64,000 nt of DNA, from assembly GCA_016928995.1 (NCBI GenBank), contig JAFGJS010000037.1, forward strand, positions 7,030 to 71,029. Reading direction: 5' to 3'. The translations under genes and the position numbers were made by a program. Origin of the DNA: Candidatus Sumerlaeota bacterium. Its GTDB lineage: Bacteria > Sumerlaeota > Sumerlaeia > JAFGJS01. Each line of letters begins with the position of its first letter. Position 1 is the first letter of the stretch. The notes beneath the pieces are model-generated. The model had not been told where the DNA came from, made no database searches, and worked only from the letters and a program-made list of their open reading frames with translations. Positions 54,101-63,823 of the stretch are shown here, one piece after another.

Positions 54101-54175
54101 GCGCGTGTAGCACAATGGCTAGTGCATCGGCCTTCCAAGCCGAGGATACGGGTTCGATTCCCGTCACGCGCTCCA
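54101..54175 (+). tRNA. tRNA-Gly (anticodon TCC)
   Basis: Acceptor GCGCGTG (54101-54107) pairs with CACGCGC (54165-54171), discriminator T, and CCA is encoded at 54173-54175. Anticodon stem TCGGC/GCCGA (54127-54131 with 54139-54143) encloses loop CTTCCAA; the anticodon TCC is at 54134-54136. The T-arm contains GGTTCGATTCC. It reads GGA and GGG codons. Confidence 0.95.
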
Positions 54176-54362
54176 CCGAAATTGGGCGAATTACGAAGAT
54201 TTACTTTTCTTCTTCCGCCGATTTTTCCGAGTGTTTTTCCAATAAAGTTTTGGTGTTGTCACAGGCGGCTTTCACCGAGGCATGATTGTTCATGCAACGG
54301 CGTCTATCGTCAGCGGTTGTCCGTTTCCACAGGTAGGATCGGGCTAAGCGTTTTCTTATCAG

Positions 54363-55904
54363 TTATCGTTCGTATTGCAATTCGTCATTGGATTCTGTTT
54401 CGGCTGCGCCCGGTTTCCATGATGAGGCTGGACCTGAAGTTTGTTTTCCATAAGAAATGATAGCTTCGCTTAACTGGCTTCCCGTAACCGGAATGGGCGC
54501 TTTGATGAGTTCGGGAATATTATAGGCCCAGGCCAGCGAATCATAGTACGCCGGATTCTGCTGAGGCAGCAGAAACGGCTTGTGCGCCACGCCATTCGCA
54601 TCGACATAACTGAAGAACGGCCGGGAAAAACGGCCATCAAGGCGTTTGCTGTTGAAAGCAATCCAGCGGCCATTGCTCGACCAGCTGTGCCAGGTGTCGG
54701 GCCGTTTGCTGCTGATGGATAGTTTGCGGTGTTCGCCGCTCTCCATATCCATCAGGTATAAGTCGCACTGGGCCTGGTGAATGGGAAAGTCGCTGTATGG
54801 CGAAACGTTGAACAAGAGGAACCGGTCATCGGGCGAGAATCGCGGCTGGTTGATGCTGCCGTCCACTGCTTTCGCGGATAGAACCGTCTCCAGCTCGCCC
54901 CATTCGCCGCTTTCCGCATCATAGCGGATTCGCATTAAGTCGCAGCGCACTTCACGATAGCGTTCCTTCGGGAGCTGCGGCGCGCTGCAGAAATACAAGT
55001 ATCGGCCGTCGCGGGACCATTCTGGAAATGTCTCCATGCGATCGATCTTGCTGATCTTGTTTTCTCGGATGACTTCTCGCGTATCCAGGCGGTACAGGTC
55101 CAAATCGCAGGCGAGGTCGAACACGTCGCGCACTTCCTGGACCTTCGTATGGATCAGCATCTGGAATTTGTTGTCGGTGATGGCCAGAAGCTTGCCATTG
55201 GGATGCCAGGCGGAAAAACCGGTCTTCCCGGACGTCAGTTCGGTTTTCGTGCTGATGGGTTCGACTTGATTATTTTCAACCAGCAACATGGGGGTGCCGT
55301 ATGTTGAGGATCTTGCCTGAAGCGCCATATGATGGGGATCATTATTGAGATAAGAATGGCAGTGCATGCACCCATAGCTGAACAACCGGTTATGCAATAC
55401 GACGGATTCTTCGTAGTTTTCCAGATTCCTTTGATAGAAGCCCATGTCGTTCCAGATCACCGAAATCATGATTTTCCGGTATGTTAAGAAAGGGTCGATG
55501 CCAGCGTCCGCAACGGTGTTTTCAATCGTCTCGAAGCGGCTCCAGTTGTTCTCGCTGTCTTTCACGTATACATCAAAATAAAGTTTCCGCCCATGGTTGG
55601 CGTCCAGCAGTTTTTTCCAACGATCCACCGGGATTTCAATGTCTGGCTTTCGACTGTGAATTTCGATGGGATCGCCGTCTTTGGAGTAAATTTTCACATA
55701 ATGACCGGCGCCGTTTTCTTCGATCAGAAAATTCAGGGGAGCGATATTCGGAGGGATGACGACGCCGCAATAGTCCGGACGGATTTTAGCGGGACGGTCG
55801 ATTGAGCGGGATGCATCGATGACCGCCGTCTTATCGCATTGGGTGAAAACCAACGCGCAAGCCAACAATGCTAACGTCAATGTCGATGATGCCGTAGTTC
55901 TCAT
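54363..55904 (-). CDS. C-haem (CxxCH) TolB-like propeller lipoprotein, copy 1
   Basis: 513 residues. A lipoprotein-type signal ends at C23 (VFTQC). Residues 45-130 are a beta domain nearly identical in copy 2. A c-type haem site lies at C179-MH-CH183 (CxxCH), followed by WD40-like/TolB-type propeller repeats (~225-440: FSAWHPNGKLLAITD, FPEWSRDGRYLYFCS, INQPRFSPDDRFLLFN). Likely lipid-anchored outside the cytoplasm and matured by a cytochrome c system. It is last in the minus-strand series B2-A2-B1-A1. Function unknown; I recall similar genes in Bacteroidetes beside large membrane proteins. Confidence 0.82.
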   Translation of the reverse strand: MRTTASSTLTLALLACALVFTQCDKTAVIDASRSIDRPAKIRPDYCGVVIPPNIAPLNFLIEENGAGHYVKIYSKDGDPIEIHSRKPDIEIPVDRWKKLLDANHGRKLYFDVYVKDSENNWSRFETIENTVADAGIDPFLTYRKIMISVIWNDMGFYQRNLENYEESVVLHNRLFSYGCMHCHSYLNNDPHHMALQARSSTYGTPMLLVENNQVEPISTKTELTSGKTGFSAWHPNGKLLAITDNKFQMLIHTKVQEVRDVFDLACDLDLYRLDTREVIRENKISKIDRMETFPEWSRDGRYLYFCSAPQLPKERYREVRCDLMRIRYDAESGEWGELETVLSAKAVDGSINQPRFSPDDRFLLFNVSPYSDFPIHQAQCDLYLMDMESGEHRKLSISSKRPDTWHSWSSNGRWIAFNSKRLDGRFSRPFFSYVDANGVAHKPFLLPQQNPAYYDSLAWAYNIPELIKAPIPVTGSQLSEAIISYGKQTSGPASSWKPGAAETESNDELQYER

Positions 55905-56029
55905 GCCCTTGCCCGTTATCGATCCCTTGATCTATTTTATCCAGCTGGATCGGCCGTGAAACGCTGCACCGGCCTCCTTGACCGATGACTCTTTTTAACG
56001 GATTAAAAGGTCCGTGATGCGCTTTCAAC

Positions 56030-58000
56030 TTACCGTATCAATTGACTCCCTGAAAATCCATAGACGTTGTAGAAATAATAAGTGTCGCCGAATTTATCCG
56101 CCAATTCGGTCAAGGCCGCCTGTTTATCGTTATGCTTATTCAATATATTGATGAGCTCCTGAAGCCGTGTGATCGATTCCGGACTGATTTCATAGCCATA
56201 TAAATCCGGTCTTTGACCCGTGGTCTGCATATAGATGACCAATGCTTCCTCAAACGCTCGCGGGAGCGTGGCATACTGAAAATCGCGCAGACGTTCGATA
56301 TTATTAACAATCTCCAACACCTCTCTGCGCTGAAAATAACTGGCCATTAAGTATTCAAAGGCCATTCGGTTATGCTTGTTTTGGGCGAGCAACTCGGTCA
56401 GCGAGCCTTCGTTGATACTGTCATCATCCGGTATCAGGGAACGAATCCGTTGGATTTCCTCGTCCGAGGAAAAATCAGGATCCTCTTCGAGCCGGTCCAA
56501 CAGCTCCTGCGCCTGGTCCCTGTAGAGGAAATCCTCGCGCAGGATGCGCAACAACGCGCGGGCGGTCTCTGGTTGCCGCTTGACGATGTTGATCAGGGCC
56601 AGCCGCTTCAATGCCTGCGGATGGTATTTCAATCCCGCCAAAGCGTCCCAGGCGAAGTTCTCGGCTTCATTGACGCGGCCCAGCTCATAATAAGTCTCGC
56701 TGAGATCTAAAAATCGGGCCCTTCTTTCCATGGCGCTTAACGATCTTGATGCCGCTTCGACGTGATAAAGACACCAGTCGATTGGCTGGGGATAGGCGAA
56801 CATCTCATCAAGCAACCGGCCGCTATGGTAGAGCGCTCGATTGACATCATGGCAATAACAGACGTTGAAGTATTTCGTGCCAAGGTTGCGGGCTTCGTAC
56901 AGAACTTCATTCCACATCCGCTGCTGGGAGTAAAAGCGGATGCGAAGATAATGTCTTTCTTGATGATTCGTTGATAGCAGGACGACGCAGATTAGGATAA
57001 TCAGCAGAATTATCGCGGATAACATACCATGCGATGGGTTTGCATTCTGGCTCGTATCGGCTTTGCTTTGCTGAATCTTATCGTCTTTGCTTTTCCGGCT
57101 TTTCTTTTTTCGGGCTTTGCCCTTATCGGCATCGACGCGCCTGAATCGGTTCTGGAGCTTGTCGCTGTTGTAGCGCCAATACACACTGGCCAATCCGGCG
57201 ATCGGAAAAAAAACATAGAGAAAATAATAGAGCACGGGTCCATTAAAATAAACGGATAATGGGTCGTAGGGCAGGACTGCCGGATCATTGGGCAGGATGC
57301 AGAGATATACTTCGGCGGCGCTGATGTCGAACAGCAGCGCGCTGACTACGATGGGGATCAGCGCCGCTGAGATCAACGCCCCAAGATCCACAAGCCAAGC
57401 GCGTTTAACGAGCAATTCGTACAGCGCGCAGAGCATCACGAAAGGCAGATATGCGAAAACCGCCGCGTAGTAAATCACAGCGGAAAAAAACAAAAACAAG
57501 ATGAAGCGAAGCGCGCCGCGCCGTATGCATGCGCGAGTATAAAGATAGAACAGCAGCAGACCAAGCGCGATGGATAAGTTCTCCATCATGAAGTGATAGT
57601 AGCGGCTGTATTGCAGCAGAACCACAATCGCCGGAATGAAGCGGAGCGCCCGCAGCCGTCCGTCGCTCATCACGTCCAGGCATTGGCCGGTTCCCCAGCT
57701 CAGCAACCAGGCGACAGCGGTGATGATCAGCGCTCCCGCCCATGAATAGTGGAAACAATAGAGCAGCACGCCCGCCGCGCACATCGCCGTCTTGCCGGGA
57801 AAACCTGGTATCTGCTCAAATCCCCCCGAACCCGGAACGTAAGGCGGCAGGCGCCAATAGCTCATAATGCTGCAGTGAAGCAGCCTCGGATCGAGATAGA
57901 GGAAGATATAAAGAAAAAACAAGAGATAAAAAAACAGGTGAAAAAAAAACGTCGCGCGCCATCCGTCCCTCGCCGCATCTGTATTTGGCGCGTCAACCAT
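56030..58000 (-). CDS. Polytopic membrane protein with TPR-like tail, copy 1
   Basis: 656 residues. About ten hydrophobic helices in residues 20-310, a Lys-rich cytoplasmic loop (KARKKKSRKSK) and a further helix (~350). A long helical TPR-like C-terminal part (~370-656) includes LDLSETYYELGRVNEAEN, LKRLALINIVKRQPETAR and ELLAQNKHNRMAFEYLMAS. I place the start at Met 58000: AGGAG is 9 bases upstream and the same start gives 656 residues in copy 2, where upstream homology continues in another frame. Possibly DUF6057-like; function unknown. Confidence 0.8.
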   Translation of the reverse strand: MVDAPNTDAARDGWRATFFFHLFFYLLFFLYIFLYLDPRLLHCSIMSYWRLPPYVPGSGGFEQIPGFPGKTAMCAAGVLLYCFHYSWAGALIITAVAWLLSWGTGQCLDVMSDGRLRALRFIPAIVVLLQYSRYYHFMMENLSIALGLLLFYLYTRACIRRGALRFILFLFFSAVIYYAAVFAYLPFVMLCALYELLVKRAWLVDLGALISAALIPIVVSALLFDISAAEVYLCILPNDPAVLPYDPLSVYFNGPVLYYFLYVFFPIAGLASVYWRYNSDKLQNRFRRVDADKGKARKKKSRKSKDDKIQQSKADTSQNANPSHGMLSAIILLIILICVVLLSTNHQERHYLRIRFYSQQRMWNEVLYEARNLGTKYFNVCYCHDVNRALYHSGRLLDEMFAYPQPIDWCLYHVEAASRSLSAMERRARFLDLSETYYELGRVNEAENFAWDALAGLKYHPQALKRLALINIVKRQPETARALLRILREDFLYRDQAQELLDRLEEDPDFSSDEEIQRIRSLIPDDDSINEGSLTELLAQNKHNRMAFEYLMASYFQRREVLEIVNNIERLRDFQYATLPRAFEEALVIYMQTTGQRPDLYGYEISPESITRLQELINILNKHNDKQAALTELADKFGDTYYFYNVYGFSGSQLIR

Positions 58001-58100
58001 CGTTTGCTGCTCCTGCAGAATTGAAGATTCAGTAGCATCAAGCCATGCCTGCAAACCATGCGAAAGTCAAGCGCAATGCCGGAGCGGTCAATTAAGGGGG

Positions 58101-58130
58101 TTCTTAAGGATTAAGTTTCGAGCTTAAGAA
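58101..58130. other. Small inverted repeat between module copies
   Basis: TTCTTAAG (58101-58108) and CTTAAGAA (58123-58130) are perfect 8-bp inverted repeats with a 14-base spacer in the 260-base gap between copy 2 A and copy 1 B. Confidence 0.35.
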
Positions 58131-58260
58131 ATGTAATCATTTGGATGCAAAGATATAAGGGAAATCGCTATCAATTTAATTCCGGTGGACTGCCGGCGAT
58201 GAGCACGGGCAGCCGTTGTTGTCGCTTCGAAAGGAAGGATCGGCTTGGTGTTTTCCAGAT

Positions 58261-59805
58261 TTATTGTTCGTATTGGGATCCGGCATTGGCATTTGTATTC
58301 GCCGTGCCCGGCTCCCATGAGGAAGCTTGACCTGGGATGAGTTTTTTATATGAAACGATGGCTTCGCTCAACTGACTTCCCTTCACCTGGATTGGCGACT
58401 TGATCAGTTCGGGAACCTGCAGCACCCAGACTAACTTGTCATAGTATGCCGGATCCTTTTGAGGCAGCACAAAGGGTTTGTGCGCCTCGCCGGTCTCGTC
58501 TACATAACTGATAAAGGGCCGGGAAAAACGGCCATCGATGCGACGGCTGCTGAACACGATCCAGCGGCTGTTGCTGCTCCAGCTGTGCCATGATTCGTTT
58601 TGTTCGCTGCTGATGGACAGCCTGCGATGCTCGCCGTTGGACAAATCCAGCATATGCAAATCGGATTTGAGCTTATCCACGGGAAAATCGCTATGATCCG
58701 CAACGTTGAATAAAAGAAACCGGCCGTCGGGCGAGAAGCGCGGCTGGTTGATGCTGCCGTTCACTTCCTTTGCGGTCAGGACGGTCTCCAGTTCACCCCA
58801 CTCTCCGCTTTCCATGTCGTAGCGGATTCGCATCAAATCGCATCGCACCTGGTGATAGAGTTCCTCAGGCAGTTGCGGCGCGCTGCAGAAATACAGGTAT
58901 CGCCCATCGCGGGACCACTCTGGAAAAGTCTCCATGCGTTTCGGATTGCTGATCTTGCTATTGCTGATAACCTCTCCGGTTTCCACGCGATACAGATCCA
59001 GATCGCTGGCGTGGTCGAACACGTCGCGCACTTCCTCGGCGTTCGTATGGATCAGCATTTGGAATTTATTGTCGCTGATGGCAAGCAGCTTGCCGCTGGG
59101 ATGCCAAGCGACGAAGTTGACTTTGCCGGACGTCTGATCGGACTTCACACGTTTGGGCATGACTTCATCATTTTCGACCAGCAGCATCGGCGTGCCATAT
59201 GCGCCGGATCTTGTCTGCAGCACCATATGATTCGGATCGTTGTTGAGGAAAGTATGACAATTCACGCATCCGTAGCCGAACGACCGGTTGTGCAACACCA
59301 CCGATTCATCGTAGTTTTCCAGATTCCGTTGATAAATGCCCAGATTTCTCCAGATGAGGCAAAGTTGGATTCGCCGGTACGCCAGGTAAGGATCAATCTC
59401 CTCCTGCGTGATGGAATTCTCGATCGGCTCGAACCGGCTCCAGTTGTTTTCGCGGTCTTTCACAGATACTTCAAAATAAAGTTTCCGCCCGCGGTTGGAG
59501 TCCAGCAGTTTTTTCCAACGATCCACCGGGATTTCAATATCTGGCTTTCGACTGTGAATCTCGATAGGATCGCCGTCTTTGGAGTAAATTTTCACATAAT
59601 GACCGGCGCCGTTCTCTTCGATGAGAAAATTCAAGGGGGCGATATTCGGAGGGATGACGACGCCGCAATAGTCCGGACGGATTTTCGCGGGACGGTCGAC
59701 AGAGCGGGATGCACCGACGGCGGCCTGCTTGCCGCACTGGACAAAAACCAACGCGCAAACTGACAATGCCGCAAACGTCAATGTCAATGATATCCTCGTT
59801 TTCAT
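58261..59805 (-). CDS. C-haem (CxxCH) TolB-like propeller lipoprotein, copy 2
   Basis: 514 residues, aligned to copy 1 along its whole length. Lipoprotein signal ending at C24 (VFVQC), haem motif C180-VN-CH184, then the same propeller repeats (FVAWHPSGKLLAISD, FPEWSRDGRYLYFCS). The segment from RPAKIRPDY through RWKKLLD (about 65 residues) is identical in both copies, and its DNA is roughly 95% identical with mostly silent changes. It follows its membrane partner by 73 bases. Confidence 0.82.
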   Translation of the reverse strand: MKTRISLTLTFAALSVCALVFVQCGKQAAVGASRSVDRPAKIRPDYCGVVIPPNIAPLNFLIEENGAGHYVKIYSKDGDPIEIHSRKPDIEIPVDRWKKLLDSNRGRKLYFEVSVKDRENNWSRFEPIENSITQEEIDPYLAYRRIQLCLIWRNLGIYQRNLENYDESVVLHNRSFGYGCVNCHTFLNNDPNHMVLQTRSGAYGTPMLLVENDEVMPKRVKSDQTSGKVNFVAWHPSGKLLAISDNKFQMLIHTNAEEVRDVFDHASDLDLYRVETGEVISNSKISNPKRMETFPEWSRDGRYLYFCSAPQLPEELYHQVRCDLMRIRYDMESGEWGELETVLTAKEVNGSINQPRFSPDGRFLLFNVADHSDFPVDKLKSDLHMLDLSNGEHRRLSISSEQNESWHSWSSNSRWIVFSSRRIDGRFSRPFISYVDETGEAHKPFVLPQKDPAYYDKLVWVLQVPELIKSPIQVKGSQLSEAIVSYKKLIPGQASSWEPGTANTNANAGSQYEQ

Positions 59806-59878
59806 GGCCTTTCCCGTTGTAAATCCCTTGAGAAATTTCTAACCAGCCTGATCGGCGGCCCCGCGCCGTATTTTCAAA

Positions 59879-61849
59879 TCACCGTATCAACTGACATCCT
59901 GCAAAGCCATAGATGTTATAGAAATAATATGTGCCGCCGAATTGATCCGCCAATTCGTTCAAAGCCGCCTGTTGATCGCCATACTTACTCGATGCGCTGA
60001 GGAAAGTTTGGAATCGCTTGAGCGATTCCGGGCTGATTTCATAACCATGTAAATCCGGTTTTTCACCCGTGGTCTGAGTATAGATGAGCAATGCTTCCTC
60101 AAGCGCTCGCGGGATTGCGGAATAATGAAATTCACTCAGACGTTCGATGTTTTGAACGATCTCCGGAACCTTTCCGCGCTGAAGATAATCGACCATTAAG
60201 TATTCAAACGCCATCCGGTTATGCTTGTTTTTGGCGAGCAACTCTTCGAGAGAACACCCATAGATGCTGTCGTTGTCCGGCGTCAGGGAACGGACTTGTT
60301 GAATTTCCTCGTCCGCAGAAAAATCAGGATCTGCCTCGAGCCGGTCCAACAGTTTCTGCGCCTGGTCCCTGTAAAAAAAATCCTCACGCAAGGTGAGCAG
60401 GAACGTGCGCGCGGTATCCGGCCGGCGCTTGACGATATTGATCAAGGCCAGCCGCTTCAAGCCCATTGGATGGTATTGCAGCCCCGTCAAGGCGTCCAAG
60501 GCGTAGTGTTCGGCGCCATTGACGCGCCCCAGTTCATAAAAAGTCTCGCTGAGATCCAAAAATCGAGCCCTTTTTTCCATCGCAGATAATGATCTTGATG
60601 CAGCTTCCACATTATAAAGGCACCAGCCGGTTGGTTGGGGATAGGCGAACATGTCATCAAGCAGCCGGCCGCTATGATAGAGCGCTCGATTGACATCATG
60701 GCAATAGCAGACGTTGAAGCGTTCCGCCTCGAGTTTGCGGCCTTCGCGCAGAACATCGTCCCACATCCGCTGCTGAGAATAATAGCGAATGCGAAGATAG
60801 TGTCGTTCTTGATGATTCGTTGAAAACAGGACGGCGCTGAAAATGACAATCAGCAGGATCGCCGCAGATAACATGCCCTGCGATTGGCTTGCAATCTGGC
60901 TTGTATCGGCTTTGCTTTGCTCAATCTTGCCTTTTTTGTTTTTCCGCTCTTTCTTTTTTTGGGCTTTGCCCTTATTGGCCTTGAAACGTCTGAATCGATC
61001 CTGGAGCTTGTCGCCGTTATAGCGCCAATACACGCAAGCCAATCCAGCGATCGGAAAAAAAACATAGAGAAAATAATAGAGCACGGGTCCATGAAAATAA
61101 ACGGTTAATGGATCGTACGGCACGATTGCCGGATCATTGGGCAGGATGCAAAGATATGCTTCGGCGGCATTGATGTCGAACAGCAGCGCGCTAATCGCGA
61201 GGGGGATCAGCGCCGCTGAGGCCAGCGTCCCAAGACCAACAAGCCAAGCTCGTTTGATCAGCGATTCATACAGCGCGCAAAGCATCACGAACGGCAGATA
61301 TGCGAATACCGCCGCGTAGTAGATCGCGACGGAAAAAATTAAAAACAGAACGAAGCGAAGCGTGCCACGCCGCATGCATGCGCGAGTATAAAGGTAAAAC
61401 AGCAGCAGACCAAGCGCGAGCGATATATTCTCCATCAGGTAGTGATGGTAGCGGCTGTATTGCAGCAGGACCACAATCGCCGGAATGAAGCGAAACGCCC
61501 GCAGCCGACCGCCGCTTATCGCATCCAGGCATTGGCCGGTTCCCCAACTCAGCAGTCCGGCGGCGGCGGTGATGATCAGCGCTCCCGCCCATGAATAGTG
61601 GAAACAATAGAGCAGCACACCCGCTGCACACACTGCGGTTTTGCCGGGAAAATCCGGCATTTCCACAAATCCTCCCGAGCCCGGAACGTAAGGCGGCAGA
61701 CGCCAAAAGCTAGGAAGACTGAAGTGAATCAGCCTTGGATCGAGATAGAGGAAGATATAAAGAAAAAACAGGAGATAAAAAAACAGGCTAAAAAAAAACG
61801 CCTCGCGCCTCCCGCCGTTCGCTGCATCTGAATGCGGCGCGTCAACCAT
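59879..61849 (-). CDS. Polytopic membrane protein with TPR-like tail, copy 2
   Basis: 656 residues, the same as copy 1, with the same helix pattern: FFYLLFFLYIFLYLDPRL at the start, WRLPPYVPGSGG, a Lys-rich loop KAQKKKERKNK and TPR-like repeats. GGGAG lies 9 bases before Met 61849; the frame opens at 61930, but upstream homology to copy 1 is in another frame, so translation begins here. A minus-strand TACAAT (plus 61964-61969) could be part of the module promoter. First gene of the B2-A2-B1-A1 series. Confidence 0.8.
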   Translation of the reverse strand: MVDAPHSDAANGGRREAFFFSLFFYLLFFLYIFLYLDPRLIHFSLPSFWRLPPYVPGSGGFVEMPDFPGKTAVCAAGVLLYCFHYSWAGALIITAAAGLLSWGTGQCLDAISGGRLRAFRFIPAIVVLLQYSRYHHYLMENISLALGLLLFYLYTRACMRRGTLRFVLFLIFSVAIYYAAVFAYLPFVMLCALYESLIKRAWLVGLGTLASAALIPLAISALLFDINAAEAYLCILPNDPAIVPYDPLTVYFHGPVLYYFLYVFFPIAGLACVYWRYNGDKLQDRFRRFKANKGKAQKKKERKNKKGKIEQSKADTSQIASQSQGMLSAAILLIVIFSAVLFSTNHQERHYLRIRYYSQQRMWDDVLREGRKLEAERFNVCYCHDVNRALYHSGRLLDDMFAYPQPTGWCLYNVEAASRSLSAMEKRARFLDLSETFYELGRVNGAEHYALDALTGLQYHPMGLKRLALINIVKRRPDTARTFLLTLREDFFYRDQAQKLLDRLEADPDFSADEEIQQVRSLTPDNDSIYGCSLEELLAKNKHNRMAFEYLMVDYLQRGKVPEIVQNIERLSEFHYSAIPRALEEALLIYTQTTGEKPDLHGYEISPESLKRFQTFLSASSKYGDQQAALNELADQFGGTYYFYNIYGFAGCQLIR

Positions 61850-62074
61850 CGTCCGCTGCTCCCGCGGTGTTTTTGCAGAATTGAAAATCCAATAGCAACA
61901 AGCCATGCCTGCAATCCGCGCGAAAGTCAAGCGCTATGCCGGGAACGGCCGGTTAACCGTTACATTGTATACAGGATCGCGCTTGATCTGCAATCAGTTG
62001 ACGACGCGGCATCAGATCCAGATCTGCCTTGTGGCGAATCCGAGTTGCGTTTTGCGCGGCGACTTTCTTCACGC

Positions 62075-63823
62075 TCATTCAAGCCGTTTCCGGTAATACT
62101 CCTGAACGATAAAGAAGGCCTGCTTGCGTTCGCCGCGCTCGGAGACGAGGCCCTTGCGATTCCAGCCGTCCTGGATGCCGGGCAACATGCGCAGCGGCGT
62201 GCGGAAGTCGACCAGAACCCAGGGCGCACAGCCGCGGAAATTGGCGATCCGCTCCAGCATGGGAAACGACTCACGATAGACCCACGCCTGGAACTCCTCC
62301 GTCCAACGCGTCTCTTTGTCCCCGTGAAAACCAAACAGCGCGCCGGCGCCAAACTCGCTGATGATCAGCGGCTTGTCGAAGCGCACTTCGTAATCGCTGG
62401 TCTTGCATGCATCGGGCAGGCCGTCGTACCAGCCGATATATTGATTGAGCGCAATCACATCCAGCTGCTCTCCGAGAGCGTCGCTGATGACCTTCTTGCC
62501 TGTGCCTTCGATCTTGTCCGGTTGCAGCGCCGCGCTGACCAGCCGCGTGTCATCGAGGCTCCGCACATGATCGGCCATCGCCTTCAGGAATTTATTGCGC
62601 GGCTCCGTCCTTCCCGTTTCGTTGCAGATCGACCAGATGATCACGGCGGCGCGGTTGCGGTCGCGGTTGATCATCTCGCCCATCTGGCGTTTGGCGTTTT
62701 CCAGGACTTGGTCGTCGCCCCAATGGATGCCCCAGTAAAGCGGCAATTCCCCCCACAACAGGATTCCCCACTCATCGGCGAGCCGGATGATGTTTTCATT
62801 ATGCGGATAGTGCGCCAGCCGGACGAAGTTGCAATTCAATTCCTTGGCGTAACCCAGAAATCGCTTGGCGTCTTCAACGGACCATGCGCGCCCGCCGCGA
62901 ACAGCGTTCTCCTCGTGATAGCAGACGCCGCGCAGGAACATCGGTTTCCCGTTCAGCAGTAGCTCCATCCCGCGCGTTTCCAGCGTGCGGAAACCTATCT
63001 TATCGCTCACGCTCGATTCACCGGCGCGAATCGTCACGTCGTAGAGTTTTGGATTGTCCGGGCTCCAGCGCTGAAGGCCGGGCAGATCCAATTCAATCCG
63101 CGCCTTGCCTGTGTCATCCACTGTGAAAGACTCCTTGAGACCCAGTTCGGGGAGCTCCACTTCAACCGATTCGGGAAGTTTTTCGCCGTCCAGTTCAACC
63201 CAGCCCGATGCATGATTCGCGGAGCCTTTCGCCAGCTGAAAATGGAAATTACGGATGAAGGTGGAATCAAGTGCGACCAGGCGAACGTCGCGGGTAATGC
63301 CGCCGTAGTTCCACCAATCGGTGACATTCGACGGGATGGCGTCGCCGCGGCGACGGTTGTCGACGGCGACGATCAGCGAGTTCTCGCCATCGCGGAGCTT
63401 GCCCGTGATCTCCAGATTGAAGGGCGTAAAGCCCCCCTCGTGCTCGCCCAGTTTTTCGTTATTGAAATAGACCTCCGCCTTGTAGTTGATCGCGTCGAAA
63501 TAAAGGAACAGGCGTTGTTCTCGCATCTCCTCCGGAATTTCGAAGAGGCGCCGGTGCCAGATGCGGCCTTCATAATAAAACAGCTTATCGTCCTGTGAAT
63601 TCCAGTCGCCGGGAACCCAGAGCGTGGGAGAGGCGTCAAAGCTGTATTCCAACCGGTCGGATTTGCTCTTCGGCTTGGCGTCTTTCCAGACCGGCATGAA
63701 GCCGAACGCTCCGGTTTCATATCCGTCGATAATATACTTCCATTTTCCATTCAGCGAGAGTTGCGCTCTCGATCCGATTGCTCCGATTAATTTCGCGGCA
63801 TGGGTCTGTTCGGCGGGATTCAT
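62075..63823 (-). CDS. uidA: Beta-glucuronidase-type glycoside hydrolase (GH2)
   Basis: 582 residues. Jelly-roll domain (~20-185), immunoglobulin-like domain (~186-285) and TIM barrel. Acid/base E402 (IWSICNET), nucleophile E490 (IISEFGAG) and the N555-R-K557 motif, which in beta-glucuronidases reads the uronate carboxylate, are all visible. No signal peptide, so cytoplasmic; it would release glucuronic acid from imported glycans or conjugates. AAGGA lies 7 bases before the start. It precedes the duplicated module on the same strand with a 225-base gap. The last 177 bases of the window hold nothing I can support. Confidence 0.9.
   Translation of the reverse strand: MNPAEQTHAAKLIGAIGSRAQLSLNGKWKYIIDGYETGAFGFMPVWKDAKPKSKSDRLEYSFDASPTLWVPGDWNSQDDKLFYYEGRIWHRRLFEIPEEMREQRLFLYFDAINYKAEVYFNNEKLGEHEGGFTPFNLEITGKLRDGENSLIVAVDNRRRGDAIPSNVTDWWNYGGITRDVRLVALDSTFIRNFHFQLAKGSANHASGWVELDGEKLPESVEVELPELGLKESFTVDDTGKARIELDLPGLQRWSPDNPKLYDVTIRAGESSVSDKIGFRTLETRGMELLLNGKPMFLRGVCYHEENAVRGGRAWSVEDAKRFLGYAKELNCNFVRLAHYPHNENIIRLADEWGILLWGELPLYWGIHWGDDQVLENAKRQMGEMINRDRNRAAVIIWSICNETGRTEPRNKFLKAMADHVRSLDDTRLVSAALQPDKIEGTGKKVISDALGEQLDVIALNQYIGWYDGLPDACKTSDYEVRFDKPLIISEFGAGALFGFHGDKETRWTEEFQAWVYRESFPMLERIANFRGCAPWVLVDFRTPLRMLPGIQDGWNRKGLVSERGERKQAFFIVQEYYRKRLE

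Follow-up and report, generated by a model that had tools for sequence, protein, structure and literature searches.

A tandemly repeated gene pair of a haem-c-motif propeller protein and a DUF6057 membrane protein, with a chorismatase as recurrent third partner

A two-gene module, in which a gene for a polytopic membrane protein of the DUF6057 family (B) precedes one for a predicted haem-c propeller protein (A), occurs twice head to tail in the 64,000-nucleotide stretch of Candidatus Sumerlaeota bacterium DNA analysed here (the window; Table 1), and in several phyla a chorismatase gene lies beside or near it. In composition, though this says nothing of function, the combination of B, A and chorismatase matches no system tested here or known to us. 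We know of no described system that combines a haem-c propeller, DUF6057 and a chorismatase. With a probability of about 0.4, we propose that the module builds an inner-membrane/periplasmic haem-c complex in which the TPRs of B dock A and which depends on 3-hydroxybenzoate (3-HBA) or a derivative. Support for the architecture and the gene linkage is good; we infer the chemistry, as we do the docking of A on B, the use of 3-HBA and the reaction itself.

Table 1. Features of the tandem array and its edges (positions in the window)
Feature	Position	Strand	Description
tRNA-Gly(tcc)	54101..54175	plus	about 140 bp off the array edge
Duplicated unit, copy 1	54316..58082	minus	blastn, unit vs unit
A1	54363..55904	minus	propeller protein, haem-c motif CMHCH, 513 aa
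Putative conversion tract in A1	55600..55784	minus	about codons 41-102
B1	56030..58000	minus	DUF6057 membrane protein, 656 aa; PF19529 E 3.5e-77
Duplicated unit, copy 2	58218..61942	minus	blastn, unit vs unit
A2	58261..59805	minus	TolB-like propeller protein with CVNCH, 514 aa; PD40 match
Partner of the A1 conversion tract	about 59501-59685		inside A2
B2	59879..61849	minus	DUF6057 membrane protein, 656 aa; PF19529 E 1.8e-77
Glycoside hydrolase family 2 protein	62075..63823	minus	Pfam GH2 domains; upstream of B2

The original prediction placed four open reading frames in one direction, as two repeats of a unit of about 3.7 kb, and all four are there, on the minus strand. Homology does reach into the flanking DNA, giving a unit of 3.77 kb whose copies are 80% identical over 3784 columns (blastn). 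B1 and B2 share 77% residue identity and A1 and A2 share 72%. Aligning the copies, as had been proposed, delimited the unit edges listed in Table 1 and gave dN/dS values of 0.31 for the B pair and 0.24 for the A pair, which indicate that both proteins evolve under purifying selection. Because dS is 0.41 between the B copies and 0.71 between the A copies, the duplication is old, with the exception of one tract of A. This tract of 185 bp, for which about 95% identity had been noted, is identical at 178/185 positions and contains no amino-acid changes. Third-position differences at codons for the same amino acid number 6/61 within the tract vs 101/309 outside it (p = 0.0005, permutation by codon shuffling), an excess of silent-site identity that makes local gene conversion probable. 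Of the suggestion that the module was recently amplified or converted, conversion of one tract thus stands and recency does not.

In trees, B1 and B2 are sisters, whereas A1 clusters with a Pirellulales A protein and A2 with other copies from its own genome. Given this disagreement, the histories of A and B partly differ, likely through conversion or recombination. We reject simple recent copying of the two-gene unit, given the tree positions of A1 and A2 and dS. The array could in principle be an assembly artefact, or an ordinary recent duplicate whose genes share no function, as the genome is a draft of 161 contigs; yet units that are 80% identical in DNA cannot be a single copy that was assembled twice, 11 B-A pairs are spread over several contigs, and tandem arrays also occur in records titled as chromosomes (e.g., L047). 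We reject the artefact, a concern raised at the outset, and this reading as a whole is hardly credible.

The GC content of the array is 0.51-0.52, compared with mostly 0.55-0.61 around it. Within the window, a tRNA-Gly gene at the array edge accompanies this drop across 54-62 kb. The array is possibly a genomic island and the tRNA gene possibly its insertion site. The GH2 gene and B2 are on the same strand with 145 bp between their open frames, and may share a transcript.

The predicted architecture of A2 comprises a signal/anchor helix, a TolB-like N-terminal domain and a six-bladed propeller (AF2 pLDDT 91.6). Each window copy contains a single CXXCH (CVNCH at residues 180-184 in A2), and the motif is invariant across A homologues (78/78), most commonly as C-hydrophobic-N-C-H. 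Other well-kept histidines, H235 (75/78), H253 (69) and H407 (68), are candidates for the axial ligand. Conservation of CXXCH in an exported protein, here one with an N-terminal hydrophobic helix, is the criterion for c-type cytochromes, and A is predicted to be one, as was originally proposed from the propeller and haem-c motif; haem attachment would be at this CXXCH. A had also been taken for a lipoprotein, which we reject: the lipobox cysteine is not conserved, with a strict lipobox in just 5/78 homologues and none in A1 or A2, where Gln is at -1. Given this rarity, "exported" or "N-anchored" is the better description of A.

Sequence matches of A are generic only (PD40/TolB-type propeller), and its model aligns to TolB with Z 26.5 and rmsd 3.0 across 274 residues. 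Like TolB of the Tol-Pal system, A is exported and combines a six-bladed propeller with an N-terminal domain. It differs in its invariant CXXCH, in a gene context where no Tol-Pal genes were seen, and in scoring 36.9 bits against the TolB equivalog TIGR02800, for which the cut-off is 343. The fold nevertheless invites another reading, in which A is a TolB-like envelope-assembly scaffold and CXXCH is a metal site or redox disulfide rather than a haem site, and the predicted model does put the motif in a beta-strand, which is atypical for haem c. However, the histidine is as invariant as both cysteines, and would be superfluous for a disulfide. Furthermore, ResB/CcsA haem maturase genes adjoin the module in four genomes, three recognised with Pfam (L074/L172, L099/L161 and L170) and one (L052/L173) because its gene clusters with that of L074, and unrelated CXXCH proteins likewise adjoin chorismatases. 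We consider a site other than haem quite unlikely.

B is a clear, nearly full-length member of DUF6057 (PF19529; 261 and 262 bits vs a cut-off of 29.8), a Pfam family of unassigned function. The expected polytopic TPR membrane protein is borne out by a model with nine predicted transmembrane (TM) helices followed by TPR repeats at about 345-650 (AF2 pLDDT 88.9). Averaged over 82 homologues, the net charge of successive loops, starting inside with the N-terminus, is +0.8 (in), -0.9 (out), +1.5 (in), +0.2 (out), +1.2 (in), 0 (out), +2.3 (in), -0.5 (out) and +3.5 (in), and the TPR domain then follows outside. The alternation predicts an N-in topology with a periplasmic TPR domain, so that the TPRs and A would be on one side of the membrane. 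Conserved residues of B are mainly in the TPR half.

The layout of B recalls GT-C transferases, with its multiple TM helices, large first outer loop and external TPRs; TMTC is a GT-C transferase with TPRs on the outer side. B might then be a transferase like STT3, PMT or TMTC that attaches either a sugar or a group bearing 3-HBA to an envelope molecule, with A as an oxidising or substrate-holding partner. The TM region of B aligns to STT3 of OST complexes (8age, Z 9.5 over 282 residues, rmsd 5.8; also 7oci, 6s7t, 8agc and 6ezn), but Z values under 13 count as weak for helical proteins. An acidic residue is present where TM1 meets the first loop, but is D or E in only 65/82 homologues, whereas GT-C enzymes should have an invariant catalytic acid in this outer loop, and the TM half of B is the less conserved one. 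None of the 82 B members matches a Pfam GT-C family (HMMER), and profile-profile comparison with PMT_2 (hhalign) gives a probability of 2-7%, close to reversed controls. A GT-C origin of B is thus unsupported by sequence, and we regard a transferase role as unlikely. A PDB sequence search with B returned a single weak TPR match and nothing else.

In the open-access literature searched, we found no paper that names DUF6057 or the motif NIAPLNF. We also found none in open-access literature on the B-A-chorismatase module, consistent with the initial description of an undescribed envelope pair.

The pair, first noted as occurring twice, does so in the window; genome-wide there are 11 pairs, always in the order B then A. 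The comparison with other genomes covered 79 loci: in 71/80 testable cases B immediately precedes A in the same orientation, and in most of the remaining nine the two genes are adjacent in another arrangement. An A-B order instead of B-A, or divergent genes, is seen in L078 and L089, and in L064 and L093. Tandem repeats of the pair also occur in L035, L047, L053, L061, L062, L066, L079 and L102. In a survey of 446 genomes (199 Planctomycetota and 247 Bacteroidota), full-length A and above-cut-off B were found in the identical five genomes, two of these being seeds; with the seeds left out, A and B share 3/444 genomes (p 7e-8). Homologues of A and B do not, therefore, usually occur apart, a finding that would have refuted the original prediction, and DUF6057 gains a nearly obligate partner. 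The distance matrices of A and B correlate with r 0.84 (76 pairs) and with r 0.96 within this genome, beyond all permutations. By record title, B-A pairs occur in Planctomycetota, Verrucomicrobia, Lentisphaerae, Armatimonadota, KSB1, Bacteroidota, Ignavibacteriae and others.

None of 39 relatives examined from the same phylum has DUF6057 above cut-off. The copies in the Sumerlaeota genome form about three separate lineages in both the A tree and the B tree, and one lineage includes a Pirellulales pair whose locus also encodes a rhamnogalacturonan lyase and two GH43 proteins. The simplest reading of these trees and absences is that the pairs arrived horizontally and then expanded. Carbohydrate-type neighbours are frequent in a raw tally but not uniform (GH2 in the window, GH43, rhamnogalacturonan lyase, GH3/CBM9, sulfatase, 3-keto-disaccharide hydrolase). 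TPR, Gfo/Idh/MocA, 3-keto-disaccharide hydrolase, sulfatase and GDSL proteins each appear in small numbers, and the neighbour tally revealed no common pathway.

Some A/B clusters (L043, L171) include A-like CXXCH propellers fused to C-terminal TPRs, which suggests contact between the A propeller and the TPR part of B. Topology, co-divergence and these fusions together suggest a physical A-B complex. Propeller-CXXCH-TPR fusions are about 770-880 aa long (L043:7645-10293, L061, L066, L171:7815-12856); that of L171 has the motif CGNCHSF, and the L171 cluster also has a chorismatase.

The third partner is a gene of 350-445 aa that matches chorismatase families; 14 loci, spread over several phyla and including this genome, have it next to B-A or close by. 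It lies before B or after A, mostly 0 to 160 bp away. Enzymes of the CH-II class are defined by residues that in Nat-hyg5 are Gly164, Gly231, Cys318 and the catalytic Glu325 (PMC7170507). From alignments, these correspond to G260, G324, C403 and E410 in the chorismatase of this genome (L024), and all four are kept in 20/20 aligned chorismatases. The associated enzyme is thus a predicted 3-HBA synthase of the CH-II (Hyg5) type, although it differs from Hyg5-type enzymes in adjoining cytochrome genes and not polyketide genes.

At some score, a chorismatase match is present in 29/30 A-B genomes tried, with a long match in about 25; many of these genomes were picked from A-B loci and some for a nearby chorismatase, so 29/30 is not an unbiased rate. 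Among Bacteroidota, chorismatase occurs in 3/3 A-B genomes vs 1/244 others, and two Bacteroidota genomes recognised solely via B and A also have a match. In G040, G192, G505 and G507, all A-B genomes, the homologue is distant, fragmentary or absent. Planctomycetes bacterium CA13 (L098) likewise combines a single B with a merely distant homologue of the chorismatase. The gene is nearly always single-copy in A-B genomes, with one chorismatase vs 11, 9 or 4 B matches per genome, suggesting that the pairs have diversified around one small molecule common to them.

Of the Planctomycetota genomes that lack A-B, about 10% have a chorismatase-like gene, and there the homologues adjoin other CXXCH proteins. 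These neighbours are HZS_alpha-like (L165:5699-12066), PSCyt2/PSD1 (L164:10177-13808) or of propeller type; L166 is another such locus. Planctomycetes are known for envelope haem-c proteins of the PSCyt and hydrazine-synthase-like kinds, some with propellers, encoded near carbohydrate genes (PMC5615132). Some of those cytochromes resemble A in adjoining a chorismatase homologue. A itself differs from them in having its haem motif inside the propeller, and has no match to PSCyt or HZS_alpha Pfam domains at E up to 1.

3-HBA is also a known starter unit of xanthomonadin/aryl-polyene-like products (PMC7170507), so the module could make or export a 3-HBA-derived pigment or lipid (cf. xanthomonadin, aryl polyenes); in that case, oxidation of the phenol would fall to A and handling of the product to B. 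An AMP-binding ligase that adjoins the chorismatase in L170 favours this reading, but the scan of neighbouring genes turned up no polyketide or aryl-polyene genes, and we consider such a product quite unlikely.

In the haem-c complex that we favour, B would cross the membrane nine times from an internal N-terminus and present its TPR domain to the periplasm. A would be exported, usually held by its N-terminal helix, would bind a single haem c covalently within its first blades, and would dock onto the TPRs of B. Chorismatase would produce 3-HBA in the cytoplasm, and 3-HBA or its product would be the common small-molecule partner of the haem site as substrate, cofactor or electron mediator. A single chorismatase could thus serve many B-A pairs, which would diversify through duplication, plausibly per substrate and often near carbohydrate-degrading genes. 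A further claim, which we put forward as doubtful, is that these proteins form a novel class of haem enzymes in the periplasm, one that occurs in many phyla and has multiplied by repeated tandem duplication, with an in-blade haem-c propeller, a dedicated TPR membrane partner, and chorismate-derived 3-HBA or its product as cofactor or mediator.

DUF6057 would thereby acquire a likely chemistry, that of an outward-facing haem protein linked to 3-HBA. Given the wide spread across phyla, the annotation of many genomes would follow from a single biochemical experiment, and the module may bear on the long-standing question of what propeller cytochromes do in PVC bacteria.

Some loci depart from the standard arrangement. 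One full-length A (G045:C1:1492368-1493822) has no nearby B match; elsewhere, that genome has complete pairs. In L104:146-3814, A and B are each split into two frames, possibly a decaying pair. Finally, in L168:6447-7487, part of a record whose title calls it a chromosome, a single open frame joins the N-terminal part of a ribonucleotide reductase to the final 75 positions of DUF6057 and directly precedes an A gene and a chorismatase.
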